64,000 nucleotides of DNA. Origin: Serpula lacrymans var. lacrymans S7.9 (lineage: Eukaryota > Basidiomycota > Agaricomycetes > Boletales > Serpulaceae). Shown here piece by piece: positions 34,736-63,027 of the stretch (position 1 is its first letter; each line of letters starts with the position of its first letter). The notes under the pieces were generated by a model that searched no databases, was not told the origin of the DNA, and saw nothing but the letters and a program-made list of their open reading frames with translations. The DNA is taken from the NCBI RefSeq assembly GCF_000218685.1, contig NW_006763298.1, positions 1,646,869-1,710,868 on the forward strand, in the 5' to 3' direction. The position numbers and the translations under genes are program-made.

Positions 34736-35121
34736 TGTAAAACCTCTATCCCCTATACCGAGTTAACGGAGGGATAAAAGCTTAAATCAAACAAGTAGCG
34801 TTTTTCAAGTAGCGATTGAGAATTAATCAACAACTGAGGAAAGTATGTACATGATGGTCTACTATATATATGTTTCTGAAAGTCAGCCATGAGGCGCTGA
34901 CTGAGCTAACATGCAGTAGCCATGAGGCGCTGACTGATGTTCTTTGTAATAATTCTAGACTCGTGTCACGTGGTGGTCACGTGATCTGATATAACTATGT
35001 ATTATGTTATCCGCGCTAAAGCAGCAGCTTAACATATCTTATCTGTCATGTGATCAGATGTAAAAGAAAAAGAAAAAGAAACTTAGCGCTTAGACTAGCG
35101 CTTCTGGTTCAAGTCGTGACA
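34736..35121 (-). repeat. 3' LTR of copy 1 (386-bp variant)
   Basis: Sense LTR begins TGTCACGACTTGAACC and ends GGTTTTACA. It is 34 bp longer than the other LTR of the same element because a segment around CAGTCAGCGCCTCATGGCT is tandemly duplicated. The last codons and stop of pol (35090) lie inside it. Confidence 0.93.
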
Positions 35122-38100
35122 TTACCCCCTCCTTAGGACTTTCGTCCCGAAAGTAGGGGTCCATCTTTCCGTTTTCCCAATTGAACAGTTGTTTTCGGAC
35201 TCTAGTCGTTGTGAAGTTTTCGAAGGGTTGGAAATGTAATTGAAATCGGATCCGTCGGGGTGCACTAGGGTTGTTATCGTGGAATGTTTTTACTTTATCG
35301 GGTGAGTTGTTTAGATGTTGTTCGGGTTCCCACGTGCGTTCCTCTTTTGGATAGTTCTTCCAGTGTACTAAGTATTCCAATTTCCCCTTTTTTAGACGTG
35401 AGTCTAGAACTTCTTCGACTTCGTATTCTTCTTGTCCGTCCACTATTATCGGCGGTATTGGTTTAGGTTTCTGTTGGGAAGGGAATTGTGGTTCTTTGTA
35501 CGGTGTAAGCTTTATCTCGTTGAAAACTGGATGAATAGGTCGCCATGTCGGTGGTAGCGCTAATTTATATGCCGATTCGCCTATTTTTTCCAGTATTTCA
35601 AACGGACCGTGTCTCTTGTCGTCCAGTTTCTTCGCTGGTCGATCTGTTGAGATATTGGTCGCTTCTACGTACACCTTATCTCCTACTCTATATTCTACTG
35701 CTTCTCTTTTCTTCTTATCGTACTGCTTCTTCATCTGTTCAGCTGCCTTTTGCAGCGACTTTTCTGCTCTCTTCCTTGTTTCTGTCATTCTCTTTACGAA
35801 ATCTTCTGCATTTTCGTTCTTTACCCCCACTTTCACTACTTCCTGTGTTCTCGGATGATGTCCATGATTCAGGTAGAACGGGCTATATCCCGTCGCAGAA
35901 TGTTGTTTGTTATTGTAAGAGAATTCTGCTAGGGTAAGCCATTCTGCCCAATCATCTTGTTTGTGGTTTACGAAGATTCTGAGATACTGTTCTATCTCTT
36001 GATTGATCCTCTCTGTCTGTCCATCCGTTTGTGGATGCCAAGCCGTTGATGGGTTCGCTTTTATCTGAAGGAGTGTATGTAGATCTTTCATGAATTTCGA
36101 AACGAATTGCGGTCCCCGATCTGAGATGATCTTTTTGGGTATGCCATGGTTCCTGAATACATGATCTCTAAATAGTCGTGCCACTCCTTCTGATGTGATC
36201 TCCATCTGCGTGGGAATTACCTTGATCATTTTTGTGAACCGATCTACTATTACCATTATCATGTTATATCCATTTGATTCTGGTAATGGTCCGATCAGAT
36301 CTACCGATATGATCTGCCACGGTTTATCCGGGATCTCATTTGGATGAAGCGGTGCTGCTTTCTTTTTGTGGTCTGTTTTGGTTCTTTGGCAGACTTCGCA
36401 TCCATCTACGTATCTCGTGATATCTCTGTCCATATAGGGCCACCAGTATTGTCGAGTAATTAGCTCCTTTGTCTTATATCTTCCTGGATGGCCTGCAATA
36501 ACAGAGTCGTGGTTTCGTCGGATAATTTCTTCCCTTAACGCGGCATCCTTCGGTACATAGATCCTGCCTTTGAATACTATGCAACCGTCTTCGTCTAGCC
36601 AACCATCCTCTCTCCTCTCTATCTTTCCTTTCATCTTTTTTATCAGCTCATCTACATTTCCCTTTCTTTTTGTAATCCACTTTGAAATCTCCAATTCTTT
36701 CTCTTGACTGTCTGCGATCTCTTGTCTTTGTTCCGGAGAGAGAGTCATTCTTACAAATAGTTTCTCATCCAGTAGTATGACGTCTTCGTTGTCGTTTTCT
36801 CCTTTGTTATGATCTGATCGCCTTGAGAGAAGATCTGCTTTTATATGCTTCCTTCCTGGCATATGATGTATCGTGAAATGATACTGGCTCAACTCTGTCA
36901 TCCACCGCGCCTGTCTCCTGTTCAACTTCTTGGGTTCTTTGAAATACAGCAGATTTTGATGATCTGTCCATATTTCAAATTCCTCTTCTGCGTCTATTAA
37001 GTAATGTCTCCATTCGTTAAGTGCCGTCATGATGGCAAGAAGTTCTTTGTCATAGATCTCGTAATTGCGTTCTGTGGGGTTTAACGCTTTGGAGAGATAT
37101 GCAATTGGCTTCCAGTCATCTTTTTGTCTTTGTGATAAGACAGCACCCATAGCGAAGTCACTACTATCTGCTTCTACTTTGTATTGGCCATGTGGTACTG
37201 GGAGAGCTAACACCGGGGCTGAAGCTACACGTTGTTTTAATGTGTTAAATGCTTCTTGTTGTTCATTTCCCCAAATGAAGTCCTCTTTTCCCGTTAACTT
37301 GGTCAATGGTTTGGCTACTTCCCCGAAGCCCTCTATGAACCTTTGATAGAAATTTACAAATCCCAAGAATGCTTGTATGTCTTTCTTATTTTTGCATTCT
37401 GGCCATTTGCTAATTCCTTCTACTTTCACCGGATCCATGCAAATTTCGTTTTCTGAGATGATCAGTCCCAGGTATTCTACTTTTGTCTGTTCGAAATCGC
37501 ATTTTTCTGGTTTAAGATAGAGATGATTTTTTCTCAGGATTTCTAACACACGTCGCGTCGTTGCTCGGTGCGTTTCTATATCCTTTGTGAATATCATGAT
37601 ATCATCTAGATATATGATTACTAATCCTTCATCTATCAACTCTCTAAAAAGCGTGTTCATCATCATTTGGAACGTGGCGGGGGAGTTTGTCAGTCCGAAG
37701 AACATGACTAGTGGTTCAAATAATCCCCGATTTGTCCTAAACGCCGCTTTATGCTCATCTCCTTCTCTCATTCGGATGTTATTATATCCCCATCTTACAT
37801 CCAACTTTGTGAAGTATTTGGCCCCACTCAATTTGTCTACTAGTTCCCCGATCAACGGAAGTGGATATCTATTTTTGATGGTGATATCGTTTAGCTTCCT
37901 ATAATCTTGAACTGGTCTCAACTTCCCGTCTTTCTTTTTAATGAAGAAGAATGGTGATGCGAACGGGGACTTCGATGGTCTTATCTGTCCCGATTCCAGA
38001 TTCTCTTTTAGGAACGCATCTAGTTCTTCTTGCTCTCCTCTTGCCAATGGATAGATCTTGCAATCTAGGGAGTGATCTCCCGGTATTAGTTCGATTGCGT

Positions 38101-39340
38101 GATCCCATTGTCTTCTTTCAGGTAATGTGTCAAACTCCTTTTTGTCAAATACGTCTTTGTATTGATGAAGGTGTTTTGGCACTATCTTTTCGAATCCTCC
38201 TTCTTTTTGATCTTTGCCTGCGGCTTCTGCTAGCTTCTGTGCCATTGTGCCTTGGGCTCTAATATGGTAATATTGATCGTCGATCGTGGCATCTTCGAAA
38301 TTATGGAGATTCACCTGTATCATCCTCTCATCTTCTCGTAGCTCCTCAAAGAATATTTCCGGATCCTCCTCTGGATCAGAGATTCGGATTCTCGGTCTAC
38401 ATTCTTCAGGACACCTTTCAAAGGTCAACTTCGATTCTTTCCAGTCTATTTTAGGATTATGTTTGTTCAACCACTCATGCCCTAGAAACATTTTTCCGTT
38501 ACCCAGATTGGTTACGGCAAGATGTATCTTCTCGACGTGTCCGTCGATTTCCATGAGCAGTATTACAAATTCATTGATGGCTCCGTTTTTATTAAGAGTT
38601 CCATCTGCATTATAGACTGGAATAGGTCTCGGTATCTTCCTTGTCTCATATCTTTTGTCTTTCACAAATTGGGAGTCGATGCAACTCCACGTGCATCCAC
38701 TGTCCAATAGTGCTTCGACTATTTCTGATTGGAGAGTATCTAATGTAGTAAGCTTACATTTTACGTTCATTTGATTGCCTTGGGTGCCCCTAATGTACTT
38801 TTTTGGGGAGGCAATTTCTATGATCGCTTGTATAGCTTCTACCTTTGGTAACCGGTTGATTTCTTTTATCGTTTCCCGGGTTACTTCTCTCGCTCTCTTT
38901 TTATGTGTCCAGGCACTTAGAATCCCAATGGATCTTTCTTCCTTTTGGTCTCTTAGCCTATCTACTACCCACTCTGGGGTCCAAACTTCTGTTCTAGGTT
39001 TTTTTAAAGGGGTTCCTGACCTTTCTTCTACAGTCTCTGCTGCGTTTTCCTCCGTAGAGTTCGCCGCATCGGGTGTAGGAATCTTAGGTTCTATCGTAAA
39101 TGCTGCGCTTTTTAGTGATTTGCCCGCCGTCGTAACTGCGGATGTCTTATCACTCTGCGCCGCTTTTACTCTAGCTGCATCTTTTTCGTTTCGGATTTCT
39201 TTCTTTGTCTGAGTGGAAATAATTTTATTGTTATCCGCGCTAAAGCTGCAGCTTAACAATTCTGAGTCACATGTATCTACTGTCAAAGGAAGAAACCGAT
39301 TCAAAACGTCTTTAGGCTCAGTCGGTCGATGCGGTACCAC
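35090..39340 (-). CDS. Gypsy Pol polyprotein, copy 1
   Basis: 1416-codon open frame without stops. Order: aspartic protease (ALLDSGCTWSCID), reverse transcriptase (LVIIYLDDIMIFT), RNase H (EADSSDFAMGAVLSQ), integrase zinc site (IAGHPGRYKTKELI, CEVCQRTK), integrase core (SVDLIGPLPESNGY, SDRGPQFVSKF, DGQTERINQEIEQY) and C-terminal chromodomain (EYEVEEVLDSRLKKGKLEYL, ERTWEPEQHLNN). The frame has no ATG at its start (the first listed codon is GTG). Pol is presumably made by -1 frameshifting from Gag. The chromodomain likely steers integration to marked chromatin (family knowledge). Coding capacity is intact, but this copy's Gag is not. Confidence 0.95.
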   Translation of the reverse strand: MVPHRPTEPKDVLNRFLPLTVDTCDSELLSCSFSADNNKIISTQTKKEIRNEKDAARVKAAQSDKTSAVTTAGKSLKSAAFTIEPKIPTPDAANSTEENAAETVEERSGTPLKKPRTEVWTPEWVVDRLRDQKEERSIGILSAWTHKKRAREVTRETIKEINRLPKVEAIQAIIEIASPKKYIRGTQGNQMNVKCKLTTLDTLQSEIVEALLDSGCTWSCIDSQFVKDKRYETRKIPRPIPVYNADGTLNKNGAINEFVILLMEIDGHVEKIHLAVTNLGNGKMFLGHEWLNKHNPKIDWKESKLTFERCPEECRPRIRISDPEEDPEIFFEELREDERMIQVNLHNFEDATIDDQYYHIRAQGTMAQKLAEAAGKDQKEGGFEKIVPKHLHQYKDVFDKKEFDTLPERRQWDHAIELIPGDHSLDCKIYPLARGEQEELDAFLKENLESGQIRPSKSPFASPFFFIKKKDGKLRPVQDYRKLNDITIKNRYPLPLIGELVDKLSGAKYFTKLDVRWGYNNIRMREGDEHKAAFRTNRGLFEPLVMFFGLTNSPATFQMMMNTLFRELIDEGLVIIYLDDIMIFTKDIETHRATTRRVLEILRKNHLYLKPEKCDFEQTKVEYLGLIISENEICMDPVKVEGISKWPECKNKKDIQAFLGFVNFYQRFIEGFGEVAKPLTKLTGKEDFIWGNEQQEAFNTLKQRVASAPVLALPVPHGQYKVEADSSDFAMGAVLSQRQKDDWKPIAYLSKALNPTERNYEIYDKELLAIMTALNEWRHYLIDAEEEFEIWTDHQNLLYFKEPKKLNRRQARWMTELSQYHFTIHHMPGRKHIKADLLSRRSDHNKGENDNEDVILLDEKLFVRMTLSPEQRQEIADSQEKELEISKWITKRKGNVDELIKKMKGKIERREDGWLDEDGCIVFKGRIYVPKDAALREEIIRRNHDSVIAGHPGRYKTKELITRQYWWPYMDRDITRYVDGCEVCQRTKTDHKKKAAPLHPNEIPDKPWQIISVDLIGPLPESNGYNMIMVIVDRFTKMIKVIPTQMEITSEGVARLFRDHVFRNHGIPKKIISDRGPQFVSKFMKDLHTLLQIKANPSTAWHPQTDGQTERINQEIEQYLRIFVNHKQDDWAEWLTLAEFSYNNKQHSATGYSPFYLNHGHHPRTQEVVKVGVKNENAEDFVKRMTETRKRAEKSLQKAAEQMKKQYDKKKREAVEYRVGDKVYVEATNISTDRPAKKLDDKRHGPFEILEKIGESAYKLALPPTWRPIHPVFNEIKLTPYKEPQFPSQQKPKPIPPIIVDGQEEYEVEEVLDSRLKKGKLEYLVHWKNYPKEERTWEPEQHLNNSPDKVKTFHDNNPSAPRRIRFQLHFQPFENFTTTRVRKQLFNWENGKMDPYFRDESPKEGVMSRLEPEALV

Positions 39341-39348
39341 TGGCCTCT

Positions 39349-40854
39349 TTAAAAACCCTCAAGGAGTTTTTCCCTTTCCTCTTTCGTCATCTTTTCTAAG
39401 AACTCTCGGACATTAAATTGTGGCTTCCTTTTTTGTGCGTCTTTGCACTCAAAGCTTCTATGTCCCTTTTCTCCGCATCGGTAGCATCGTCCCTCAGTGC
39501 GGAACTTTGCTTTGTCCACCTCCATTCTTTCTCTGCTACCGGTATAGGTATACCCGGTTCCGTCCTTTTTCTTCTCTCCTTCTTTCTTTTGTTCCGAATA
39601 GGGTTTCTTCCCGATATCGGAACCTTTCTTCTCTTTTTCTCTCTCTCTCCAAATATAGTCTATTCTGATGAGTTCCTTTTTCCACTCTTGGTAATCTCTG
39701 GGAATGTGCCCGCCGTAGATCACCCTGTCTACTAGCGGCTTGTTCATGTTCCTTCTGAGTAGAGATATTAGGAACTCTTTGTTTATTCTATTTGTATATC
39801 CCGCCCATCTTTTCTTCTCCTCAAACCTTTCAAAGAAGGCTTGGGCGGTTTCATTGCCCTGTCTCAGGGTGTTACGATAACACAATTTCCGGACATCTCC
39901 TTTCCTTTTTATTCTCCGCTTTAACCTTATACTTTAAGTACCACGCGGCATTTCCCTTTCTCGCGCCGCGTTGCCTTTCTTTTACTTAACTCTCTCACGC
40001 AGTGGAGCTGGCCATACGGGCTAGACCCTATGACATCATCAGCCACTGCCTTCATCAACTGTATAGTACACATGTACAAACAAACCTGTAGTAGTATATA
40101 TACCCCAATAGATCCAGGAGACTCCTCAGCGAGTCCTCCTGTTGTATACCAACTAACTCACTGCAGCCCAAGGGGTACCCACTCCCCATCTTTCACTACC
40201 TTTACAGTGTGTTCCTGTGTGCGCCAGAGTAACTAACTCTTGGTTGTTACACAGGGTCAATATTTCGTTCTTGGCAGTTTCTTTTTCAAAGCTGTCCTTG
40301 AACCTTTCTTCCATTTTGTCCGCGAAGTACGGCCAACTTCCGTATGTGTTCGTAATATCGAGCCCCAGCTGTTGGGCATCGACTCGGTTCTCTAGCCAAT
40401 CGGTCCGGAAGGCCGCGGCTTCTCCTTCTTTCATAAAAGATAGCACAAAGCTTATCTTTTTTCGGTCATCTTTGAAATATACGGCATCGTCTTCGAAATG
40501 TAGTAATAAGGACTCTCTAAAGGCCCTATACTTTTTCTTATCTCCGGAGAAGTTCTCGGGTTTCTCCAATGCCGTTCTACTTCTTTCCACCTTTTCTGGA
40601 GGTGGTGGTATCTGCCTCTTTAATTTTCTTTGCAAGACGCTCACTTCTTCGAGCGCCTCGTCTAGCTGTGATTGGTAATGCATTTGTGTTTGTCTTATTG
40701 CTTTTTCTACTTCTTGTTTTACGTATGCTTCCAATCGCGCTTCTTTCGGGGGGGGAGTGTCTATTCTGGGTAATGAATCCATCATTTCCCTGGTAAATGC
40801 GCTGTCCGTGCTGTTGGATGGCTCGGGCAGATCGCGATATTCTAGGTTTGACAT
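39349..40854 (-). pseudogene. Gypsy gag, copy 1, interrupted by a solo LTR
   Basis: The N-terminal part (40854 down to about 40252) and C-terminal part (39869 down to 39349) join to match the intact 372-aa Gag of copy 2. The second part has the CCHC knuckle CYRCGEKGHRSFEC. A 382-bp solo LTR with 5-bp duplication sits between them, so no full Gag can be made. This copy would depend on Gag from elsewhere to move. Confidence 0.9.
39870..40251 (-). repeat. Solo LTR of gypsy family B inside gag
   Basis: 382 bp, TGTTACGATAAC ... GGTTGTTACA as written on the plus strand, flanked by the target duplication CAGGG (39865-39869 and 40252-40256). It matches the LTR at 55204-55618 in inverse orientation. 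The insertion post-dates the gypsy copy. Confidence 0.93.
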
Positions 40855-41014
40855 CGAATGTGAGTTGGGGAGGAGGGGGAGTTTCGGATTTAATCAAAGG
40901 GGATGGAATTCTGATGGGTTCTATTTCTGGTAGGGGGAATTGCCCTTTGAATACGTAATCTTGAGAGTAAATGTGTTGCTCTCCGATCCAAATGTAAAAA
41001 TCTCTACTAAGCAT
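40577..41014 (-). CDS. Leader ORF overlapping gag, copy 1 (145 aa)
   Basis: Same ORF as 57170-57607 in copy 2, same length, about 90% amino-acid identity. It begins MLSRDFYIWIGEQHIYSQ and ends KGGKK, overlapping gag in another frame. No known domain; the C-terminal part is basic. Whether it is translated is uncertain. Confidence 0.4.
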   Translation of the reverse strand: MLSRDFYIWIGEQHIYSQDYVFKGQFPLPEIEPIRIPSPLIKSETPPPPQLTFDVKPRISRSARAIQQHGQRIYQGNDGFITQNRHSPPERSAIGSIRKTRSRKSNKTNTNALPITARRGARRSERLAKKIKEADTTTSRKGGKK

Positions 41015-41358
41015 AGAAAGGAGTTCACCAGTGATAAGCTGGATCGATACACCGCTTTCTAGGATCCTAATAGTCTATCTGTTCTCTTTGAGTCAAAGTG
41101 GTCCTCTTCAGCCCACTACTGACTGTGTATGTATGGTAACTATTTTGTATTTTACGAATTTTATGTAAAAAGTATAGTGATAAATTGGGGTCCGAACGGT
41201 TGTCCCAATGTGACCAGCTTATTAAGCTTTCAGTCCTTCTCCCGACTGGTGGACGCAAATGCGCGGCCTGGTCAGAGGAAATCGAAAATGAAACTATGTA
41301 AAACCGAGAAAATCCCAATGGTTCCACACCAAAGAGATTATAGTGATATAAAATGTAT

Positions 41359-41568
41359 TTACAGGGGGATGGTTACGAACGAGTCTTGGGATGAGGAGGG
41401 GGAGACGTTGGCAGGGAAAAATGATAAAATGGTGTTGGGGCGAGTGGGTAGGTGATGAAGTGGGAGGGTAGTGGTAGTTTGGTTTGAGCATTTAAGTAGG
41501 TTTAGGATGAGGATGATGATGATGACGGTGACGATGATGGTGGTTAGGATTGTTGCTGTTATATTCAT
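41359..41568 (-). CDS. Small membrane-peptide ORF in retrotransposon leader, copy 1 (69 aa)
   Basis: ATG lies about 25 nt downstream of the LTR/PBS. Product: MNITATILTTIIVTVIIIIL, a hydrophobic helix, then a polar tail ending SQDSFVTIPL. It aligns without gaps to 56616-56825 in copy 2: 18 codons differ silently and 8 differ in amino acid, with only 2 replacements in the last 40 codons. This points to protein-level constraint. Function unknown. Confidence 0.55.
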   Translation of the reverse strand: MNITATILTTIIVTVIIIILILNLLKCSNQTTTTLPLHHLPTRPNTILSFFPANVSPSSSQDSFVTIPL

Positions 41569-41596
41569 AAACGGTACTTGTGGCAGTTGTTGATTG

Positions 41597-41948
41597 TGTA
41601 AAACCCTTATCCCCTATACCGAGTTAACGGAGGGATGAAGGCTCAAATCAAACAAGTAGCGTTACAAATAGCGATTGAGAATTAATCAACAACTGAGGAA
41701 AGTATGTACATGTTGGTCTACTATATATATGTTTCTGAAAGTCAGCCATGAGGCGCTGACTGATGTTCTTTGTAATGGTTCTAGACTTTGGTCACGTGAT
41801 GGCCACGTGATCTGATATAACTACGTATTATGTTATCCGCGCTAAAGCAGCAGCTTAACATATCTTATCTGTCATGTGATCAGATATCAAAGAAAATGAA
41901 AAAAGGAAACTAGCGCTCAGACTAGCGCTTCTGGTTCAAGTCGTGACA
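41597..41948 (-). repeat. 5' LTR of copy 1 (352-bp variant)
   Basis: Same ends as the 386-bp variant but without the 34-bp tandem duplication. Flanked on the outside by TCATC (41949-41953). Confidence 0.93.
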
Positions 41949-43690
41949 TCATCCCTTTATGGTAAACTTCTGTGCTATCATAACCTCACTGTGAGCCTCT
42001 CCCTCACTACATCAAAGAAGAGTCTCCCAAATAAGGATATATACTGTCCCTTTATGGTAAGTTTCCGCACTACCACCCAAAACATATCTGCTTTTGGATA
42101 TGCTGATATAACCCCTATTTTAAAACAAATCTATTTACTGCCCTACTTGATATTTCTCAGGCTAATTTATGTAAAGTATGTGGAGCCAACATACTAACTA
42201 CTATTCTTAGTGAATATAGGATCAATTCACATTGGGAATAGATTGTAAAATCCAATGTTATGTTTTTTTGACATATAAACATATGTTTGTTTTCCAATTT
42301 CTAGGGGAGAATTAGCTCATGGAGGCTTGCTGTAGTGATGGAAATTGCTCCCAAGCATAAACAGGCTTGACTGGACACCATGATTGGCAGGATATATCTG
42401 AGAGATCTCACAGTATGTTTGCAATTATGCATAAATTGACATCTGACCTAGAATTAGACATACAGATGCTCTGGGAGCCTTTGAAAGATATGCAGGCCTT
42501 CCCAGACAACACATAAGTGTGTCTGAACCACTATAACACCATAATTATGGGTAGGTATACCCTTATCATGTATCCTGAAACATATGAGGATATCACTGCA
42601 AAAATAACATAAAAAGTGAAACAATGCATGATATATAACACAACAGGAGCTTCTTGCATGATGGAAATATGCAGGAGACTTATAAATTTGATTCTATAAT
42701 GCTTGTGGAGCATCTGGATCAGTACAGTAGCCTTGGGTATGGAAAATGTTATTAGAAGCTATGTTTGATCTACAACTTGTATATTATCTACTATTAACAT
42801 ACATATAGTGTTCCTATAGCTGACATACAGCAATCTACACTTTATGAGCATTATAGAATAAATCAAATTTATAAATCTCCTGCATATTTCCATCATGCAA
42901 GAAGCTCCTGTTGTGTTATATATCATGCATTGTTTCACTTTTTATGTTATTTTTGCAGTGATATCCTCATATGTTTCAGGATACATGATAAGGGTATACC
43001 TACCCATAATTATGGTGTTATAGTGGTTCAGACACACTTATGTGTTGTCTGGGAAGGCCTGCATATCTTTCAAAGGCTCCCAGAGCATCTGTATGTCTAA
43101 TTCTAGGTCAGATGTCAATTTATGCATAATTGCAAACATACTGTGAGATCTCTCAGATATATCCTGCCAATCATGGTGTCCAGTCAAGCCTGTTTATGCT
43201 TGGGAGCAATTTCCATCACTACAGCAAGCCTCCATGAGCTAATTCTCCCCTAGAAATTGGAAAACAAACATATGTTTATATGTCAAAAAAACATAACATT
43301 GGATTTTACAATCTATTCCCAATGTGAATTGATCCTATATTCACTAAGAATAGTAGTTAGTATGTTGGCTCCACATACTTTACATAAATTAGCCTGAGAA
43401 ATATCAAGTAGGGCAGTAAATAGATTTGTTTTAAAATAGGGGTTATATCAGCATATCCAAAAGCAGATATGTTTTGGGTGGTAGTGCGGAAACTTACCAT
43501 AAAGGGACAGTATATATCCTTATTTGGGAGACTCTTCTTTGATGTAGTGAGGGAGAGGCTCACAGTGAGGTTATGATAGCACAGAAGTTTACCATAAAGG
43601 GATGATTTATATCCATATTTGGGACATTCTTCTGGAACATTCCTTTGATGTATTGATGGGGAGGCTCCCACAGAGGCTCTCAAAGAGCAT
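41949..43690. repeat. Long palindromic (foldback) repeat
   Basis: Left arm about 41949-42705 and right arm about 42850-43607 are near-perfect reverse complements around a spacer of about 140 bp. The distal part of the left arm was cut off by the gypsy insertion and now lies at 63028-63120, which matches 43603-43690. Both arms contain small mirror-image open frames that I do not believe are genes. The structure is that of a foldback element or a very large MITE. Confidence 0.8.
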
Positions 43691-43740
43691 ACAAATAGTG
43701 CAAAAGAGGCTTTCAGGGAGTGCACAAGGAGTGTCAATAT

Positions 43741-43950
43741 TTTAGAAATTATAGATTAAACCTCTGAAGAGGCTCTTGGCAGTGATTTTGGCTATATGCC
43801 AAGTATAGTAATCCAATTGCTACTGGGGACTACAGAGGCTGGAGGGATGGTGGGCCTCTGAGACCTATTTCTCACGACATAAAAACCCCATCTGAAAGAC
43901 CCCGAGAGCTTCCTCAAAGTTCTGCCTAAGGTGATCTGGCCAAGGTCCGA
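43741..43950 (+). repeat. Dispersed repeat R3, intact copy
   Basis: Starts near AAACCTCTGAAGAGGCTC and runs through GGCTGGAGGGATGGTGGG and CCCATCTGAAAGACC. The halves at 34655-34735 and 56110-56201 are together equivalent to this copy. A diverged copy lies near 63240-63355. Confidence 0.65.
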
Positions 43951-44156: not shown

Positions 44157-45743
<1,587 letters not shown>

Positions 45744-49371: not shown

Positions 49372-49383
49372 TCATCATCGACA

Positions 49384-52546: not shown

Positions 52547-54633
52547 ACAAGTACATGTTTCGGATAATGGATTAAAAAGTGGCTGGCTTGAGGTGCAGGA
52601 AAGTGTTACAATCGGAGTTTAAATGTCTCAAAAAGCGGTCAGATCTCTCTATAATGCCTATAGTGTTGAGCAAAATGTGTTGTCAACTGTGGGAAAGTGC
52701 TACTGTGCTGCAGTGCACTCCCGCCCTCTATTATGGCTTACCACTGTGGCACACAGTGTCAAAATATGGGAATTTTATTTACCTTTTCACATTGTCATTT
52801 CAATACTATACCAAACCAAAATAAAAACTCAAATGGGTTCAACCATTCGGGCTGCAAATAGACCAGTCTTTCTCAGTACTTGTAAAGAAGGGCCTTGGTG
52901 CATTGGATTTGGTATATTTTCACTGTCATATTCTCCCTATATTGGTGTGCAAGGATTTTTCACCTGCTGAAACTATTATTTTAGATTTGTATTTGTTTGT
53001 ATCATTTGTATTTTTCATCTTTGCCACGTATACTGAATTTGTATCATTGGCTTGGTTTTCAGGACTCCAATACCTAGGATTATACATTCTAAACAATGCA
53101 GTTATCTGATGGCCAGGGGCAGAGCTGCAAAAAGTACTCCTTCTCCATCATCACCACCTTCAAACTAAAACAGTGACATGATCAAATTTATTTATGTTGG
53201 TGTTATTTGATATTACTATTCACAATTTCTAGGCTACTTCTGAAAGACCTTTGGCTCTAGTAGCATGCTCTGTAAGTGTTCATATCTTTTTTTGAATAAA
53301 ATTAACAATCAATATTGTTTACCAGATTGAATGTGCTTTGCTAGGTGCTATCAACAATGCCACAATAGAATTCTCAGAGACAGCATTTTCTGCTAGGTAC
53401 GTCACCTCAATCACTATAAATCTGTACTTATTATACTTTTACAAGGTGGGATCATCATATGAGGTTGCTGGACAACTTTCAGAAATGTTCTCCTACATAC
53501 CTGGTGGCTGTGGTTGGTGGGGTTGATGAATATATTTGGTAAGAGCTTACTACATATTTATATTAAAATGTTTTCTTAACCTCAAGTATGATTGTAGGAA
53601 TAGTTGTATAACAGTGGGGGGAGGGGGCAAGCTGATGTTTCTGAGCTTATATTTGATTTTGATGCTTTAGAGGAAGCAGCAAAAGTGTCAAAATCATTTT
53701 TATAAATATTACTGCTGCAGCGTTTTTAAAAATCAATATAATTAATTTGCTTTATTAGTGCTTTTTTTGGATATGATTGAGTATGGATTGATACAATTGC
53801 ATTTAGAGTAAATTATAGTGAAAAAGTGCAAAGTCATTTTTGTTTTAACGACTGTGCTATAAACCACTTTTTATGATATAGCAATACTCTAAACTGGTAT
53901 TTATTGATAATCATGCATTTAGAGTAGGGGACTTTGCAAGGATCACACTTATAGATATAACAGATATTTTTGCTATTATAGCATATATTTTGCAATTTAT
54001 TGTATTTATATCTAAGTCACGTTTTCCTGATGTCCATGCTTAAGATAAGGTTGACAGAGATGGAACATGACAGGGCGGGATAAGTTTTTTGAAGTCCGCA
54101 TATTTGGTTTCATTTGGCACTGACCCAAAGTTTTGCTTATGGCTTCAGTCCTGGGTGTCTGAACGAGCTCTAAAGTTTGGTAAGATCCAGAATAATTTCC
54201 TAGTATCCACACATGTTATTGAAAGGAATCAGCCCAGCTATGAAGGGAGAACCTGCAGGCTGATAGCACTGATGGACTCATGTTGAAAAATAATGATGGC
54301 ATAAACATGCATGACTAAATACAAAAAGGTCTGTAGAAATCACTGCAGACAATTGGCATTTGGAAACCTGGAACCTATGGGTCCAGGAAAAAGGTCAATG
54401 GCATTTAATATTTTCAGGGGAAGATAACCGCATGACAATAATGCTCAAATAAGATGGAAAGAATTTTAGCCATTTGCAACATCAGATATGAAGTGTGATA
54501 ATGTTACCATGTGTAGCAATGTAGTTGTAAATTCAGTGATTTCATTTCAGGTTTTACATTTATCACAGTAAATTTGCGTCGACTTTGACGGCATTTTATT
54601 GATATTATCACAAGGCTGGAAATATCTACTTAT
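52547..54633. other. AT-rich region without recognised genes
   Basis: About 2 kb of AT-rich sequence. Open frames up to 115 aa on plus (52623-52970, 53338-53526, 54089-54286) have no recognisable motif. It may be decayed transposon or a spliced gene I cannot recognise. A short motif (GCATTTAGAGTA) occurs twice near 53800-53930. Confidence 0.4.
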
Positions 54634-55203
54634 TGTCCATGATGAGTACTGTTGTTAGAAAATCACACACAAAAAATAAACTAACACACAATCCTCCTAG
54701 ATTCCATGGAACTTGTTTATGGACTCTGCCTCCTAAAACAGTGGAGTGGTCTGGTTGTTTGTGGGGTGGTACATAAAAAAATGATCCTTCAAAGTAAAAC
54801 CCAGAGATGTATGGGTGTGGGTTTTGAGGAGGAGGGATAGTTGGAAGATAGAAAATAGGGGCTTTGGGATGAGTATGAACAAGCACTACCTGGCTAATTA
54901 TAGCACAAGGTAAGTTTGAGAATGACGAGGTGATGAGGTTCCCAGTGATAGCAGGTTTCTGATGCACAGAATGTAGTGCTCAGAAGGACTCTAATTGAAA
55001 TGGATAACAATGACTTCAGAAGTGGAGAGTGACAATGACAGCAGTTAACAGTAGTAGCAGTGGGAAGGGCTGTGACCACACTGGATCACAAGTAGCAGTG
55101 AGTAGTGAACTTGAGATTAGAGAAGAAGTCTGGATTGGATTTTTTGTTGTTTACAAGGTAGAATACAGGGGTTTATATAGTAAAGGAAAGGTAGGCTATG
55201 CAC
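54634..55203 (-). mobile_element. Repeat X, copy 3 (partial)
   Basis: Diverged match to 50301-50885 (TGTCCATGATGAG..., TTCCATGGAACTTG, TGGATCACAAGTAGC, GGGGTTTATATAGTAAA). Cut at 55204 by a family B LTR; the rest of the unit is absent here. Confidence 0.75.
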
Positions 55204-55618
55204 TGTAACAACCAAGAGTGACTTACTCTGGCGCACACAGAAACACACTATAAAGAAGATGATGGGGGTGGTTACCCCTTAGGCTGCAGTGAGTTTGTTG
55301 GTTAACAACAAGAGGACTCGCTGAGGAGTCTCCTGGATCTATTGGGGTATATATACTAATACAGAGTGTTTGTACTTATGTACTGTACAGTTTGATAAAA
55401 ACAGTGGCTGATAATGTCATGGGGTCTAAACCGCATGATCAGCTCCACTGCGTGAGAGAGTTGTATCTAAGATAAGAAGAAAGGTAACGCGGCGCGAGAA
55501 AGAGGAGTTTGAACAAAAGGGGAAGTGCCGCGTGGCACCCTGTGTGAAAGCTAAAGTACAAGGTTATAGCGGAGATTGAAAATGAAAGGAAAGGTCCGAA
55601 AATTGTGTTATCGTAACA
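55204..55618 (-). repeat. 3' LTR of gypsy family B
   Basis: 415 bp, TGTAACAACC ... TCGTAACA on plus. Followed by the polypurine tract of the minus-strand element (complement of CCCCCCCTCTAAG). Same family as the solo LTR at 39870-40251. Confidence 0.88.
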
Positions 55619-56109
55619 CTACCCCCCCTCTAAGGTTCGACTTCCAGGCGAGACCAAATACCGGAGGTAGTGGTTAAATTTTCGGGCATAGTTCGAAAAA
55701 GAGAATTAAAAAGTTTTGAATCCATGCCTCTAAGCTTCCTAGGAGCTGAGGGATTCTTAGAATAAAAGTTGCAAACAGCGTTGTGGGAGTTATCCAGATG
55801 GGCTTCTGGCTCCCACGTTCTGTCCTCGTCTCCATAGCCCTTCCATAGGACTAGGAACTCTAATTTACCATGCTTCAAGTGTGCATCCACCACCCGTTCG
55901 ACTTTGAACTCTTCTTCACCTTCCTGGGTGACTACAACCGGTCCGGGCCAATCTACGCGCTGTCCCGGCAGCAGCCCTTTGTAAGGTTTCACACGGCTAA
56001 TATTGACCGTGGGTACTACCCTCATTCTTTTTGGGAGTTCCAGCTCCACTGTGTTGGGTTTGACTTCCTTAATCCGGTAAGGGCCAATCCACTTTTTGGT
56101 CAGTTTTCT
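55619..56109 (-). mobile_element. Gypsy family B fragment: integrase C-terminus with chromodomain
   Basis: Minus-strand frame (from 56049) VNISRVKPYKGLLPGQRVDW, EEFKVERVVDAHLKHGKLEF, DRTWEPEAHLDNSHNAV and a tail to the stop at 55630. Only the last part of pol remains; upstream it breaks into repeat R3. A dead fragment. Confidence 0.88.
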
Positions 56110-56201
56110 AGAAACCTCTGAAGAGGCTCTCGGCAGTGATTTTGGGTATAGTAATCCAATTGCTACTGGGGACTACAGAGGCTGGAGGGATGGTGGGTCT
56201 C
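56110..56201 (+). repeat. Other half of dispersed repeat R3
   Basis: Matches 43759-43854 (CTCTGAAGAGGCTC ... GGCTGGAGGGATGGTGGG) and ends in GTCTC (56197-56201) at the gypsy LTR. Its continuation, by comparison with the intact copy, is at 34655-34735. Confidence 0.8.
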
Positions 56202-56339
56202 TGTCACGACTTGAACCAGAAGCGCTAGTCTAAGCGCTAAGTTTCTTTTTCTTTTTCTTTTACATCTGATCACATGACAGATAAGATATGTTAAGCTGCT
56301 GCTTTAGCGCGGATAACATAATACGTAGTTATATCAGAT

Positions 56340-56356
56340 CACGTGACCACCACGTG
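56340..56356 (+). promoter_or_regulatory. Paired CACGTG E-boxes in the LTR
   Basis: Two perfect palindromic CACGTG hexamers exactly 11 bp apart, one helical turn, about 100 bp upstream of the TATA element. The same pair and spacing occurs in the 352-bp LTR (62815-62820, 62826-62831). They are candidate bHLH-factor sites. Confidence 0.55.
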
Positions 56357-56452
56357 ACACGAGTCTAGAATTATTACAAAGAACATCAGTCAGCGCCTCA
56401 TGGCTACTGCATGTTAGCTCAGTCAGCGCCTCATGGCTGACTTTCAGAAACA

Positions 56453-56498
56453 TATATATAGTAGACCATCATGTACATACTTTCCTCAGTTGTTGATT
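56453..56498 (+). promoter_or_regulatory. LTR TATA box and predicted transcript 5' end
   Basis: TATATATA (56453-56460) lies 34 bp before CAGTTGTTGATT (56487-56498). That 12-mer is the exact complement of the sequence just after the LTR, so it is the expected start of the R region in a self-primed element. Confidence 0.6.
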
Positions 56499-56588
56499 AA
56501 TTCTCAATCGCTACTTGAAAAACGCTACTTGTTTGATTTAAGCTTTTATCCCTCCGTTAACTCGGTATAGGGGATAGAGGTTTTACAC

Positions 56589-56600
56589 AATCAACAACTG
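56589..56600 (+). other. Self-priming primer-binding site
   Basis: AATCAACAACTG, one base after the 5' LTR, is perfectly complementary to 56487-56498 inside the LTR. Copy 1 has the same pair. This is the arrangement of Tf1-type self-priming; no tRNA-like PBS (for example TGG...) is present at this place. Confidence 0.65.
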
Positions 56601-56615
56601 CTACAAGTACCGTTT

Positions 56616-56825
56616 ATGAACTTAACAGCAACAATCCTAACAACCATCATCGTCACCATCATCATCATCCTACTAATCCTAACCCTACTCAAACACTCAA
56701 CCCAAACTACCACTACTCTTCCACTCCATCACATCCCTACTCGCCCCGACACCATCTTATCTTTCTTTCCCGCCAACGTATCACCTTCCTCATCCCAAGA
56801 CTCCTTCGTAACCATCCCCCTATAA
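56616..56825 (+). CDS. Small membrane-peptide ORF in retrotransposon leader, copy 2 (69 aa)
   Basis: MNLTATILTTIIVTIIIILL forms a single hydrophobic helix; the tail is Thr/Ser/Pro-rich and ends SQDSFVTIPL. It begins about 28 nt after the LTR, upstream of all other ORFs, so it would be met first by scanning ribosomes. The pattern of differences to copy 1 (18 silent codons, 8 replacements, no gaps) indicates selection on the protein. No similarity to a known envelope or accessory protein is evident to me. Confidence 0.55.
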   Translation: MNLTATILTTIIVTIIIILLILTLLKHSTQTTTTLPLHHIPTRPDTILSFFPANVSPSSSQDSFVTIPL

Positions 56826-57169
56826 ATACATTTATATCACTATAATCTCTTTGGTGTGGAACCATTGGGATTTTCTCGGTTTTACCTAGTTTCATTTTCG
56901 ATTTCCTCTGACCAGGCCGCGCATTTGCGTCCGCCAGTCGGGAGAAGGACTGAAAGCTTAATAAGCTGGTCACATTGGGACAACCGTTCGGACCCCAATT
57001 TATCACTATACTTTTTACATAAAATTCATAAAATACAAAAATAGTTACCATACCTACATAGTCAGTAGTGGGCTGAAGAGGACCACTTTGACTCAAAGAG
57101 AATAGATAGACTACTAGGATCTTAGAAAGCGGTGTATCGATCCAGCTTATCACTGGTGAACTCCTTTCT

Positions 57170-57607
57170 ATGCTTAGTAGAGACTTTTACATTTGGATCG
57201 GAGAGCAACACATTTACTCTCAAGATTACGTATTCAAAGGGAAATTCCCTTTACCAGAAATAGAACCCATCAGAATACCATCCCCTTTAATCAAATCCGA
57301 AACTCCCCCTCCTCCCCAACTCACGTTTAATGTCCAACCTAGAATATCGCGATCTGCCCGAGCCATCCAACAGCACGGACAGTGCATTTACCAGGGAAAT
57401 GATGGACGCATTACCCAGAATAGACACTCCCCCCCCGAAAGAAGCGCGATTGGAAGCATACGTAAAACAAGAAGTAGAAAAGGCGATAAGACAAACGCAA
57501 ATGCATTACCAATCGCAGCTAGACGAGGCACTCGAAGAAGTGAGCGTCTTGCAAAGAAAACTAAAGAAACAGATACCGCCACCTCCAGAAAAGGTGGAAA
57601 GAAGTAG
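57170..57607 (+). CDS. Leader ORF overlapping gag, copy 2 (145 aa)
   Basis: ATG at 57170, stop at 57607, overlapping the first 278 nt of gag in another frame. Product MLSRDFYIWIGEQHIYSQDY ... RRSERLAKK ... KGGKK, with a basic tail. Conserved in length and position in copy 1. It could be a real overlapping gene, or a read-in leader to Gag. Uncertain. Confidence 0.4.
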   Translation: MLSRDFYIWIGEQHIYSQDYVFKGKFPLPEIEPIRIPSPLIKSETPPPPQLTFNVQPRISRSARAIQQHGQCIYQGNDGRITQNRHSPPERSAIGSIRKTRSRKGDKTNANALPIAARRGTRRSERLAKKTKETDTATSRKGGKK

Positions 57608-58448
57608 AACGGCACTGGAGAAACCCGAGAACTTCTCCGGAGATAAGAAAAAGTACAGGGCCTTTAGAGAGTCCTTATTACTGCATTTCGAAGATGATGC
57701 GGTATATTTCAAAGATGATCGAAAGAAGATAAGCTTTGTGCTATCTTTTATGAAAGAAGGAGAAGCCGCGGCCTTCCGGACCGATTGGCTAGAGAACCGA
57801 GTCGATGCCCAACAGTTGGGGCTCGATATTACAAACACGTACGGAAGTTGGCCGTATTTTGCGGACAAAATGGAAGAAAGGTTCAAGGACAGTTTTGAAA
57901 AAGAAACTGCCAAGAACGAAATACTGACCCTGAGACAGGGCAATGAAACCGCCCAAGCCTTCTTTGAAAGGTTTGAGGAGAAGAAAAGATGGGCGGGATA
58001 CACAAATAGAATAAATGAAGAGTTCCTAGTATCTTTACTCAGAAGGAATATGAACAAGCCGCTAGTAGATAGGGTGATCTACGGCGGGCACATTCCAAGA
58101 GATTACCAAGAATGGAAAAGGGAACTCATCAGAATAGACTATATTTGGAGAGAGAGAGAAAAAGAGAAAAAAGGTTCCGATATCGGGAAGAAACCCTATT
58201 CGGAACAAAAGAAAGAAGGAGAGAAGAAAAAGGACGGAACCGGGTATACCTATACCGGTAGCGGAGAAAGAATGGAGGTAGATAAAGCAAAGTTCCGCAC
58301 GGAGGGACGATGCTACCGATGCGGAGAAAAGGGACATAGAAGCTTCGAGTGCAAAGACGCACAAAAAAGGAAGCCACAATTTAATGTCCGAGAGTTCTTA
58401 GAAAAGATGACGAAAGAGGAAAGGGAAAAACTCCTTGAGGGTTTTTAA
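57330..58448 (+). CDS. Gypsy Gag (capsid-nucleocapsid), copy 2
   Basis: 372 aa from ATG 57330 (MSNLEYRDLPEPSN). A coiled-coil-prone N-terminus (about 45-85) precedes the retrotransposon capsid region (KPENFSGDKKKYRAFRESLL, YGSWPYFADKMEERFKDSF, RQGNETAQAFFERFEEKKRW). A Lys/Glu linker follows, then one CCHC zinc knuckle (CYRCGEKGHRSFEC, about residue 326-339). It assembles the particle that carries the RNA and Pol. The stop TAA at 58446 directly follows a slippery-type GGGTTTT. Intact, unlike copy 1. Confidence 0.93.
   Translation: MSNLEYRDLPEPSNSTDSAFTREMMDALPRIDTPPPKEARLEAYVKQEVEKAIRQTQMHYQSQLDEALEEVSVLQRKLKKQIPPPPEKVERSRTALEKPENFSGDKKKYRAFRESLLLHFEDDAVYFKDDRKKISFVLSFMKEGEAAAFRTDWLENRVDAQQLGLDITNTYGSWPYFADKMEERFKDSFEKETAKNEILTLRQGNETAQAFFERFEEKKRWAGYTNRINEEFLVSLLRRNMNKPLVDRVIYGGHIPRDYQEWKRELIRIDYIWREREKEKKGSDIGKKPYSEQKKEGEKKKDGTGYTYTGSGERMEVDKAKFRTEGRCYRCGEKGHRSFECKDAQKRKPQFNVREFLEKMTKEEREKLLEGF
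58439..58445 (+). other. Candidate -1 ribosomal frameshift site
   Basis: GGGTTTT, read G GGT TTT in the gag frame and followed at once by the gag stop TAA. It fits X-XXY-YYZ, and a -1 slip enters the long pol frame (TTA AAG AGG CCA ...). The same heptamer is at the same place in copy 1. No downstream stem was verified. Confidence 0.55.
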
Positions 58449-61400
58449 AGAGGCCAGCGGTACCACATCGACCGACTGAGCCTAAAGACGTTTCGAATCA
58501 ATTTTTTCCTTTGACTGTAGATACATATGACTCAGAATTGTTACGCTGCAGCTTTAGCGCGGATGACAATAAAACTATTTTTACTCAGACAAAGAAAGAA
58601 ATCCGAAACGAAAAAGATGCAACTAGAGTAAAAGCGGCGCAGAGTGATAAGACATCCGCAGTTTCGACGGCGGGCGAATCACTAAAAAGCGCAGCATTTA
58701 CGATAGAACCTAAGATTCCTACACCCGATGCGGCGAGCTCTACGGAGAAAAACGCAGCAGAGACTGTAGAAGAGAGGTCAGGAGCCCCTCTAAAAAAACC
58801 TAGAACGGAGGTCTGGACCCCAGAATGGGTAGTAGACAGGCTAAGAGACCAAAAGGAAGAAAGATCCATTGGGATTCTGAGTGCCTGGACACATAAAAAG
58901 AGAGCAAGAGAAGTAACCCGGGAAACAATAAAAGAAATCAACCGGTTACCAAAAGTAGAAGCTATACAAGCGATCATAGAAATTGCCTCCCCAAAAAAGT
59001 ACATTAGGGGCACCCAAGGCAATCAAATGAACGTAAAATGTAAGCTTACTACATTAGATACTCTCCAATCAGAAACAGTCGAAGCACTATTGGACAGTGG
59101 ATGTATGGGGAGTTGCATTGACTCCCAATTTGTGAAAGACAAAAGATATGAGACAAGGAAGATACCGAGACCTATTCCAGTCTATAATGCAGATGGAACT
59201 CTTAATAAAAACGGAGCCATCAATGAATTTGTAATACTGCTCATGGAAATCGACGGACACGTCGAGAAGATATATCTTGCCGTAACCAATCTAGGTAACG
59301 GAAAAATGTTTCTAGGACATGAATGGTTGAACAAACATAATCCTAAAATAGACTGGAAAGAATCAAAGTTGACCTTTGAAAGATGTCCTGAAGAATGCAG
59401 ACCGAGAATCCGAGTCTCTGATCCAGAGGAGGATCCGGAAATATTCTTTGAGGAACTAAGAGAAGACGAGAGGATGATACAGGTGAATCTCCATAATTCC
59501 GAAGATGCCACGATCGACGATCAATATTACCATATCAGAGCCCAAGGCACAATGGCACAGAAGCTAGCAGAAGCCGCAGGCAAAGATCAAAAAGAAGGAG
59601 GATTCGAAAAGATAGTGCCAAAACACCTTCATCAATACAAAGACGTATTTGATAAAAAGGAGTTTGACACGTTACCTGAAAGAAGGCAATGGGATCACGC
59701 AATCGAACTGATACCGGGAGATCACTCCCTAGATTGCAAGATCTATCCATTGGCAAGAGGAGAGCAAGAAGAGCTAGATGCGTTCCTAAAAGAGAATCTA
59801 GAATTGGGACGAATAAGACCATCAAAATCCCCATTCGCATCACCATTCTTCTTCATTAAAAAGAAAGACGGGAAGTTGAGACCAGTTCAAGATTATAGGA
59901 AGCTAAACAATATCACTATAAAAAATAGATATCCACTTCCGTTGATCGGGGAACTAGTAGACAAATTGAGTGGAGCAAAATACTTCACAAAGTTGGATGT
60001 AAGATGGGGATATAGCAATATACGAATGAGGGAAGGAGACGAGCATAAGGCGGCGTTTAGGACAAACCGGGGATTATTCGAACCATTAGTCATGTTCTTC
60101 GGACTGACAAATTCCCCCGCCACGTTCCAAATGATGATGAACACGCTTTTCAAAGAGTTGATAGATGAAGGATTAGTAATCATATATCTAGATGATATCA
60201 TGATATTCACAAAGGATATAGAAATGCACCGAGCAACGACGCGACGTGTGTTAGAAATCCTAAGAAAGAATCATCTCTATCTTAAACCAGAGAAATGCGA
60301 TTTCGAACAGACAGAAGTAGAATACCTGGGACTGATCATCTCAGAGAATGAAATTCGCATGGATCCGGTAAAAGTAGAAGGAATTAGCAAATGGCCAGAA
60401 TGCAAAAATAAAAAGGATATACAGGCATTCTTGGGATTTGTAAATTTCTATCGAAGATTCATAGAGGGCTTCGGGGAAGTAGCCAAACCATTGACCAAGT
60501 TAACGGGAAAAGAGGACTTCATTTGGGGAAATGAACAACAAGAAGCATTTAACACATTAAAACAACGTGTAGCTTCAGCCCCAGTGTTAGCTCTCCCAGT
60601 ACCACATGGCCAATACAAAGTAGAAGCAGACAGTAGTGACTTCGCTATGGGTGCTGTCTTATCACAAAGACAAAAGGATGACTGGAAGCCAATTGCATAC
60701 CTCTCCAAAGCGTTAAACCCCACAGAACGCAATTACGAGATCTATGACAAAGAACTTCTTGCCATCATGACGGCACTTAACGAATGGAGACATTACTTAA
60801 TAGACGCAGAAGAGGAATTTGAGATATGGACAGATCATCAAAATCTGCTGTATTTCAAAGAACCAAAGAAGTTGAACAGGAGACAGGCGCGGTGGATGAC
60901 GGAGTTGAGCCAGTATCATTTCACGATACATCATATGCCAGGAAGGAAGCATATAAAAGCAGATCTTCTCTCAAGGCGATCAGATCATAACAAAGGAGAA
61001 AACGACAACGAAGACGTCGTGCTACTGGATGAGAAACTATTTGTAAGAATGACTCTCTCCCCAGAACAAAGACAAAGGATCGCAGACAGTCAAGAGAAAG
61101 AATTGGAGATTTCAAAGTGGATTACAAAGAGAAAAGGAAATGTAGATGAGCTGATAAAAAAGATGAAAGGAAAGATAGAGAGGAGAGAGGATGGCTGGCT
61201 AGACGAAGACGGTTGCATAGTATTCAAAGGCAGGATCTATGTACCGAAAGATGCCGCATTAAGGGAAGAAATCATCCGACGAAACCACGACTCCGTCATT
61301 GCAGGTCATCCAGGAAGATATAAGACAAAAGAGCTAATCACTCAACAATACTGGTGGCCCTATATGGACAGAGATATCACGAGATACGTAGATGGATGCG

Positions 61401-62707
61401 AAGTCTGCCAAAGAACCAAGACAGACCATAAAAAGAAAGCAGCACCGCTCCATCCAAATGAAATCCCGGATAAACCGTGGCAGATCATATCGGTAGATCT
61501 GATCGGACCATTACCAGAATCAAATGGATATAACATGATAATGGTAATAGTAGATCGGTTCACAAAAATGATCAAGGTAATTCCCACGCAGATGGAAATC
61601 ACATCGGAAGGAGTGGCACGATTATTTAGAGATCATGTATTCAGAAACCACGGCATACCCGAAAAGATCATCTCAGATCGAGGACCGCAGTTCGTTTCAA
61701 AATTCATGAAAGATCTACATACGCTTCTTCAGATAAAAGCAAACCCATCAACGGCTTGGCACCCACAAACGGATGGACAAACGGAGAGGATCAATCAAGA
61801 GATAGAGCAGTATCTCAGAATCTTCGTAAACCATAAACAAGATGATTGGGCAGAATGGCTTACCCTAGCAGAATTCTCTTACAATAACAAACAACATTCT
61901 GCAACGGGATATAGCCCGTTCTACTTGAATCATGGACATCATCCGAGAACACAGGAAGTAGTGAAAGTGGGGGTGAAGAACGAAAATGCGGAAGATTTCG
62001 TAAAAAGAATGACAGAAACGAGAAAGAAAGCAGAAGAGTCGCTGCAAAAGGCAGCTGAACAGATGAAGAGGCAGTACGATAAGAAGAAAAGAGAAGCAGT
62101 GGAATATAGAGTAGGAGATAAGGTGTATGTGGAAGCAACAAATATCTCAACGGATCGACCAGCTAAGAAACTGGACGATAAGAGACATGGCCCGTTCGAG
62201 ATACTGGAAAAGATAGGCGAATCGGCCTATAAACTAGCATTACCACCGACATGGCAGCCCATTCATCCGGTCTTTAACGAGATAAAACTCACGCCGTACA
62301 AAGAACCACAGTTCCCTTCCCAACAGAAACCTAAACCGATACCGCCGGTAATAGTAGACGGACAAGAAGAATACGAAGTCGAAGAAGTTCTAGACTCACG
62401 ACTAAAACGAGGGAAATTAGAATACTTAGTACATTGGAAGAACTATCCAAAAGAGGAACGCATGTGGGAACCCGAACAACACCTAAACAACTCACCTGAC
62501 AAAGTAAAAACATTCCACGATAACAACCCCAGTGCACCCCGACGGATCCGATTTCAATTACATTTCCAACCCTTCAAAAATTTCACAATGACCAGAGTCC
62601 GAAAACAATTGTTTAATTGGGAAAACGGAAAGATGGACCCCTACTTTCAGGACGAAAGTCCTAAGGAGGGGGTAATGTCACGACTTGAACCAGAAGCGCT
62701 AGTCTGA
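58445..62707 (+). CDS. Gypsy Pol polyprotein, copy 2
   Basis: The frame is open from the gag stop to 62707 (1420 residues; no ATG near its start, so expression presumably follows a -1 frameshift). Positions below count from codon 58511: protease DSGC near 194, RT YLDDIMIF near 558, RNase H ADSSDFAMGAV near 706, integrase zinc region near 930-960, catalytic aspartates in SVDLIGPL and SDRGPQF and the glutamate in DGQTERINQE near 995, 1055 and 1091, chromodomain about 1285-1335. The last ten codons lie inside the 3' LTR. Compared with copy 1 it has DSGCMGSCID for DSGCTWSCID and ERMWEPEQ for ERTWEPEQ. All catalytic residues are present. Confidence 0.95.
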   Translation, partial: LKRPAVPHRPTEPKDVSNQFFPLTVDTYDSELLRCSFSADDNKTIFTQTKKEIRNEKDATRVKAAQSDKTSAVSTAGESLKSAAFTIEPKIPTPDAASSTEKNAAETVEERSGAPLKKPRTEVWTPEWVVDRLRDQKEERSIGILSAWTHKKRAREVTRETIKEINRLPKVEAIQAIIEIASPKKYIRGTQGNQMNVKCKLTTLDTLQSETVEALLDSGCMGSCIDSQFVKDKRYETRKIPRPIPVYNADGTLNKNGAINEFVILLMEIDGHVEKIYLAVTNLGNGKMFLGHEWLNKHNPKIDWKESKLTFERCPEECRPRIRVSDPEEDPEIFFEELREDERMIQVNLHNSEDATIDDQYYHIRAQGTMAQKLAEAAGKDQKEGGFEKIVPKHLHQYKDVFDKKEFDTLPERRQWDHAIELIPGDHSLDCKIYPLARGEQEELDAFLKENLELGRIRPSKSPFASPFFFIKKKDGKLRPVQDYRKLNNITIKNRYPLPLIGELVDKLSGAKYFTKLDVRWGYSNIRMREGDEHKAAFRTNRGLFEPLVMFFGLTNSPATFQMMMNTLFKELIDEGLVIIYLDDIMIFTKDIEMHRATTRRVLEILRKNHLYLKPEKCDFEQTEVEYLGLIISENEIRMDPVKVEGISKWPECKNKKDIQAFLGFVNFYRRFIEGFGEVAKPLTKLTGKEDFIWGNEQQEAFNTLKQRVASAPVLALPVPHGQYKVEADSSDFAMGAVLSQRQKDDWKPIAYLSKALNPTERNYEIYDKELLAIMTALNEWRHYLIDAEEEFEIWTDHQNLLYFKEPKKLNRRQARWMTELSQYHFTIHHMPGRKHIKADLLSRRSDHNKGENDNEDVVLLDEKLFVRMTLSPEQRQRIADSQEKELEISKWITKRKGNVDELIKKMKGKIERREDGWLDEDGCIVFKGRIYVPKDAALREEIIRRNHDSVIAGHPGRYKTKELITQQYWWPYMDRDITRYVDGCEVCQRTKTDHKKKAAPLHPNEIPDKPWQIISVDLIGPLPESNGYNMIMVIVDRFTKMIKVIPTQMEITSEGVARLFRDHVFRNHGIPEKIISDRGPQFVSKFMKDLHTLLQIKANPSTAWHPQTDGQTERINQEIEQYLRIFVNHKQDDWAEWLTLAEFSYNNKQHSATGYSPFYLNHGHHPRTQEVVKVGVKNENAEDFVKRMTETRKKAEESLQKAAEQMKRQYDKKKREAVEYRVGDKVYVEATNISTDRPAKKLDDKRHGPFEILEKIGESAYKLALPPTWQPIHPVFNEIKLTPYKEPQFPSQQKPKPIPPVIVDGQEEYEVEEVLDSRLKRGKLEYLVHWKNYPKEERMWEPEQHLNNSPDKVKTFHDNNPSAPRRIRFQLHFQPFKNFTMTRVRKQLFNWENGKMDPYFQDESPKEGVMSRLEPEALV

Positions 62708-63027
62708 GCGCTAGTTTCCTTTTTTCATTTTCTTTGATATCTGATCACATGACAGATAAGATATGTTAAGCTGCTGCTTTAGCGCGGATAACATAATATG
62801 TAGTTATATCAGATCACGTGGCCATCACGTGACCAAAGTCTAGAACCATTACAAAGAACATCAGTCAGCGCCTCATGGCTGACTTTCAGAAACATATATA
62901 TAGTAGACCACCATGTACATACTTTCCTCAGTTGTTGATTAATTCTCAATCGCTATTTGTAACGCTACTTGTTTGATTTGAGCCTTCATCCCTCCGTTAA
63001 CTCGGTATAGGGGATAAGGGTTTTACA
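62676..63027 (+). repeat. 3' LTR of copy 2 (352-bp variant)
   Basis: Lacks the 34-bp duplication of the 5' LTR of the same element. Preceded by a purine tract (AAGGAGGGGGTAA) that serves as the polypurine primer. Confidence 0.94.

Follow-up and report, generated by a model that had tools for sequence, protein, structure and literature searches.

Probable inversion by recombination between two opposed Ty3/gypsy retrotransposons in Serpula lacrymans S7.9

The window, by which we mean the whole stretch of 64,000 nucleotides that was analysed (G000:C9:1646869-1710868), belongs to the 42.6-Mb genome of Serpula lacrymans var. lacrymans S7.9, represented by 29 contigs in a draft that we take to be a Sanger assembly. 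It holds two copies of a Ty3/gypsy chromovirus, the interrupted repeats in which they lie, and a thiolase-like gene between them. The features are as follows, with positions counted from the first base of the window.

34655-34735, minus strand: right half of repeat R3, interrupted, ending in the duplication GAGAC
34736-41948, minus strand: copy 1, a chimeric Ty3/gypsy chromovirus (5' part of lineage B, 3' part of lineage A)
34736-35121, minus strand: 3' LTR of copy 1, 386 bp, lineage A
39296-39496, minus strand: crossover interval in copy 1, including 111 bp identical to copy 2 (39340-39450)
41597-41948, minus strand: 5' LTR of copy 1, 352 bp, lineage B
41949-43605, no strand assigned: foldback palindrome, 95%, with its outer arm broken by element B (TCATC/GATGA)
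43741-43950, plus strand: uninterrupted copy of R3, used as reference
44157-45743, minus strand: intron-containing gene resembling those of peroxisomal 3-ketoacyl-CoA thiolases (start and stop codons set from the Serpula protein, exon limits provisional)
56110-56201, plus strand: left half of R3, interrupted, ending in the duplication GTCTC
56202-63027, plus strand: copy 2, a chimeric Ty3/gypsy chromovirus (5' part of lineage A, 3' part of lineage B)
56202-56587, plus strand: 5' LTR of copy 2, 386 bp, lineage A
58301-58501, plus strand: crossover interval in copy 2, across the gag-pol boundary
62676-63027, plus strand: 3' LTR of copy 2, 352 bp, lineage B
63028-63125, plus strand: outer part of the foldback arm, interrupted, starting with the duplication GATGA

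Copies 1 and 2 are 92-95% similar and opposite in orientation. RT and RNase H are followed by integrase and a C-terminal chromodomain, which is the order of a Ty3/gypsy chromovirus. A gag domain is present in the copy 2 ORF, and none was found in the single copy 1 ORF tested there (40153-40893). The gag region of copy 1 holds about 380 additional bases (approximately 39870-40252) that are missing in copy 2 and are 80% similar to 55204-55619.

The segment between the copies does carry a thiolase gene, as had been claimed in the preliminary description of this DNA. Its exons cover a protein of S. lacrymans S7.3: the longest exon stretch matches 190 residues of that protein without a change, and four differences lie at the exon edges. 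The closest solved structures to its central piece are peroxisomal 3-ketoacyl-CoA thiolases, and other thiolase matches in the genome reach 40-53% identity. Judged from its sequence, the gene looks intact. A homologue search with a 573-aa ORF of the window yielded none. In a search of the genome for STE3 pheromone receptors, 110 exon-level matches were obtained, spread over many contigs and reaching well outside the MAT B cluster; those at C3:2698420-2717363 were grouped into five genes and agree with the place given for S7.9 MAT B in the part of the published account considered here (scaffold 3:2697701-2719838; PMC3564976).

The LTRs of this gypsy family have TG...CA ends and are accompanied by a 5-bp target duplication. 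Direct reading bore out that both window copies have mismatched 5-bp flanks: GAGAC and TCATC enclose copy 1, GTCTC and GATGA enclose copy 2. In element orientation these become GATGA...GTCTC for copy 1 and GTCTC...GATGA for copy 2, so that the target duplications are exchanged between the copies. For each of the two swapped 5-mers a chance match has a probability of about 1/1024, by arithmetic with equal base use. Homologous copies in opposed orientation are found at both ends of the inverted segment.

The repeats that were interrupted by the insertions tell the same exchange. R3 occurs dispersed in the genome. Its halves in the window correspond to reference positions 18-120 and 116-193, sharing exactly 5 bp; unbroken copies exist elsewhere in the genome, for example on contig C20 (96% over positions 1-194). 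On a second reference, the two foldback parts take up positions 1-106 and 101-198, overlapping by the 5 bp and one LTR base, and copies that span the insertion site unbroken are present on contigs C20, C5, and C3. The claims that a flip rejoins both the halves of R3 and the parts of the foldback arm were therefore confirmed. On C20 and C5 the matches to the R3 and foldback references adjoin, which suggests that a single larger repeat contains R3 and the foldback arm side by side.

We then compared the LTRs. Across the copies, the 386-bp LTRs differ from each other at 1 site and the 352-bp LTRs at 2 sites, whereas within either window copy the two LTRs are separated by 24 differences over 351 aligned sites, in addition to indels. 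That the LTRs of one element do not cluster in a tree has been named, in the portion of that paper considered, as a sign of inter-element recombination (PMC2672092), and the window copies show this pattern.

The family was surveyed across the genome with one 27-base pattern allowing up to 2 mismatches, which located LTR starts at 85 places; the census is a lower bound. LTRs were counted as a pair if they shared a strand and stood 2.5-13.5 kb apart, and on this definition the starts resolved into 34 pairs and 17 singles. One pair, C7:2492772, has an internal deletion and measures 3.3 kb, and four extend over 11-13 kb; 22 of the 34 paired elements were read whole and the other 12 by their ends alone. 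Within each of the 32 control pairs outside the window the LTRs differ by 0-6 SNPs, and the duplications are identical in 31 of them, the remaining one (C2:2251201) having one mismatch. Among the 34 pairs, mismatched duplications together with diverged LTRs occur in the two window copies only, and the exchange signature was found in none (0/32) of the other census LTR pairs. The window copies, 14 kb apart, are also the only census elements closer to each other than 100 kb; the next-closest two, on C1, are 109 kb apart and likewise opposed, with matching duplications. Matching duplications were found around 15 of the 17 single LTRs, as expected from recombination within one element, and the other 2 are truncated. 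For one family, this sets a scale of 15 within-element recombinations, seen as single LTRs, versus one exchange between elements.

The preliminary description had taken the two LTR lengths in each copy as a further mark of recombination. The lengths of 386 and 352 bp are correct, but their value as a mark did not hold up: in 14 of the 32 control pairs one LTR has an extra unit of 33 bp that the other lacks, and their duplications are identical (one further control pair differs by 17 bp). We considered whether all elements with unequal LTRs are recombinants, and dropped the idea since their duplications match. LTR length alone is thus no sign of recombination. Written with the 5' end first, the 32 control pairs comprise 10 long/long, 8 short/short, 8 short/long, and 6 long/short, with no association between the two ends in the presence of the unit (Fisher p 0.72). 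The long form contains a 20-bp direct repeat with a spacing of 13 bp, directly upstream of a TATA-like stretch, and simple deletion turns it into the short form. The long forms differ among themselves in their spacer variants, and different variants were found in unequal pairs; therefore, loss of the unit seems to recur. Unequal pairs are about equally common among those without an LTR SNP (4/10) and among the rest (10/22), which, in these small numbers, suggests that the unit is lost between the two 20-bp direct repeats while the element is reverse transcribed, and not by slow decay. Possibly, then, this promoter-side unit is kept or lost by each LTR independently and insertions are often born with unequal LTRs, a reading that we put forward tentatively; loss after insertion is possible too. 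A literature search on unequal-length LTRs from reverse transcription found nothing evidently to the point.

Where the lineages switch within the copies was mapped by alignment and trees of 18 of the 22 whole elements, the 4 longer than 7600 bases being left out. Copies 1 and 2 differ at 334 ungapped sites in this alignment. On the 5' side of the switch (up to column 2508) the element C2:392236 has the base of copy 2 at 110 of 112 differing sites, and on the 3' side (from column 2709) it has that of copy 1 at 206 of 217; the 5 differing sites between these columns are mixed. Outside the interval, 13 of 329 sites contradict a single switch, 4 of them private to one copy and 9 present in 1-3 of the 16 other copies. 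The trees changed partners in the same way. On the 5' side, copy 2 grouped with C2:392236 (support 0.999) and copy 1 with C2:235555 (0.984), whereas on the 3' side copy 1 grouped with C2:392236 (1.0) and copy 2 with C1:1172540 (0.997). C2:392236 is a single reference, and on the B side no relative is as close, the nearest being about 3-5% away. This pattern of site agreement and trees is that of one reciprocal exchange between the copies.

Since the reciprocal switch lies inside the elements, the inverted tract is about 19 kb and not 14.2 kb, as had been stated before. Its length between the crossovers is 18.8-19.2 kb, to which each element contributes about 2-2.7 kb. If 41949-56201 alone is flipped, the duplications are mended, as had been described, but the LTR pairs are not. 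Both crossovers fall within retrotransposons, and therefore neither of them breaks a host gene.

Both copies are chimeric, their duplications are swapped, their target halves are complementary, and there is one switch point. We consider it very likely that the inversion arose by ectopic homologous recombination between the two opposed gypsy copies, in a single reciprocal crossover. Elements A and B would have been related, distinct copies of one chromovirus family that lay opposed to each other on one chromosome. Element A, with 386-bp LTRs, would have inserted into an R3 repeat with the duplication GTCTC, and element B, with 352-bp LTRs, into a foldback arm with the duplication GATGA. A single crossover, confined to some 200 bp at the gag-pol boundary, would then have fused each element's 5' part with its partner's 3' part and turned round the intervening 19 kb or so. 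Target duplications of LTR retrotransposons arise at insertion, and for this reason the arrangement in which the duplications match is the older one. Because the matched LTRs differ so little (1/386 and 2/352 sites), the two insertions appear recent, as does the inversion that followed them.

The same signature could have been left by a misjoin, in which reads of similar elements were exchanged during assembly, so that the draft would show two chimeric elements and an inversion that does not exist. The four marks listed in the preliminary description had been called independent, which they are not with respect to misassembly: a single exchange or a single misjoin yields all of them, and their agreement therefore does not exclude an assembly fault. 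The local assembly is not clean either, because of an error-rich duplicated contig end and a gap beside an identical 1401-bp inverted repeat. Runs of N occur at 34109-34208 (100 N, 527 bases to the left of copy 1) and at 48980-49371 (392 N, inside the segment). The last 446 bases before the 100-N gap (33663-34108) are an error-rich duplicate, at 92%, of the interior of copy 1 (39460 to 39022), and carry rare alleles of copy 1; the one at 39451 is shared by both and absent from 14 other copies compared. These shared alleles led us to reject the piece as a third gypsy copy. The duplicate is preceded by an inverted 62-bp piece resembling 34439-34500, and this contig end (33607-34108) is perhaps a chimeric or misplaced read. 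The inverted repeat (47552-48952 and 50731-52131) is identical over 1401 bp and adjoins the 392-N gap. Scoring of the best 40 among 943 candidates gave about 40 long genomic matches, a figure that counts the two copies of this repeat themselves; among the matches listed, the other copies are about 96-97% alike. Swapped duplications were sought around this pair, and its 5-bp flanks mismatch in either arrangement; a second inversion, gene conversion, or an assembly fault may account for it. Despite these surroundings, a misjoin that produced the gypsy exchange is unlikely. Neither N run lies within an element or a crossover, and the switch falls in continuous sequence. The two copies differ at 334 sites, and seven identical runs of 116-153 bp, longer than the 111 bp of the interval, are without a switch. 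None of the 32 other LTR pairs has a fault of this kind, though each has similar relatives, and the only census elements within 100 kb of each other are the affected ones.

Two other histories have very little probability. If there had been no inversion, the elements would have been inserted as mosaics, or their LTRs altered by gene conversion, and the frequency of unequal LTRs in the family (14/32) could be cited in favour. This account leaves unexplained the exchanged duplications and target halves as well as the one reciprocal switch point in both copies, and the 14 unequal pairs otherwise differ by 0-6 SNPs, not 24. Equally improbable is an interchromosomal exchange followed by a scaffold placement that resembles an inversion. 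The copies do lie on different contigs, joined over the 392 N, but one decayed gypsy has nearly complementary pieces on either side of that gap (pol 258-573 on one strand and 559-998 on the other), and because of this the scaffold join appears supported. This decayed element is interrupted by the 1401-bp repeat, and its middle piece is itself turned round. We infer that the exchange took place in the organism, not in the assembly, and that it was intrachromosomal. Recombination between opposed copies, as first proposed, remains the best reading and its crossover is now mapped, while LTR length as a mark, the independence of the marks, and the 14.2-kb extent had to be given up.

Gypsy chromoviruses of Boletales, including those of S. 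lacrymans S7.3, have been described (PMC5689174), and the part of that account considered here is without a rearrangement of the present kind. Reports on two other systems are used here within the parts considered. For the LTR retrotransposon crapaud of Podospora anserina, disparate ends were reported in 7 of 150 full copies and ascribed to gene conversion or ectopic recombination (PMC10787394). There the reciprocal partner was not matched, whereas for Serpula the analysis identifies the two partners, the duplication of each, and the interval of the switch. Ectopic recombination was also inferred for the Galileo inversion 2z3 of Drosophila buzzatii, which is like the Serpula pair in the opposite orientation of the copies, the exchanged duplications, and the chimerism of both copies (PMC2775673). 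The three Galileo criteria hold for the Serpula inversion, which is a transposon-mediated inversion of an already known kind. The two cases differ in that Galileo is a DNA transposon for which non-inverted chromosomes were also sequenced (PMC2775673), while the Serpula elements are LTR retrotransposons, with about 19 kb inverted in one assembly. Serpula thus adds a well-marked LTR-retrotransposon inversion in a basidiomycete, in which that one assembly suffices to read the two insertion sites with their duplications and to place the crossover within about 200 bp.
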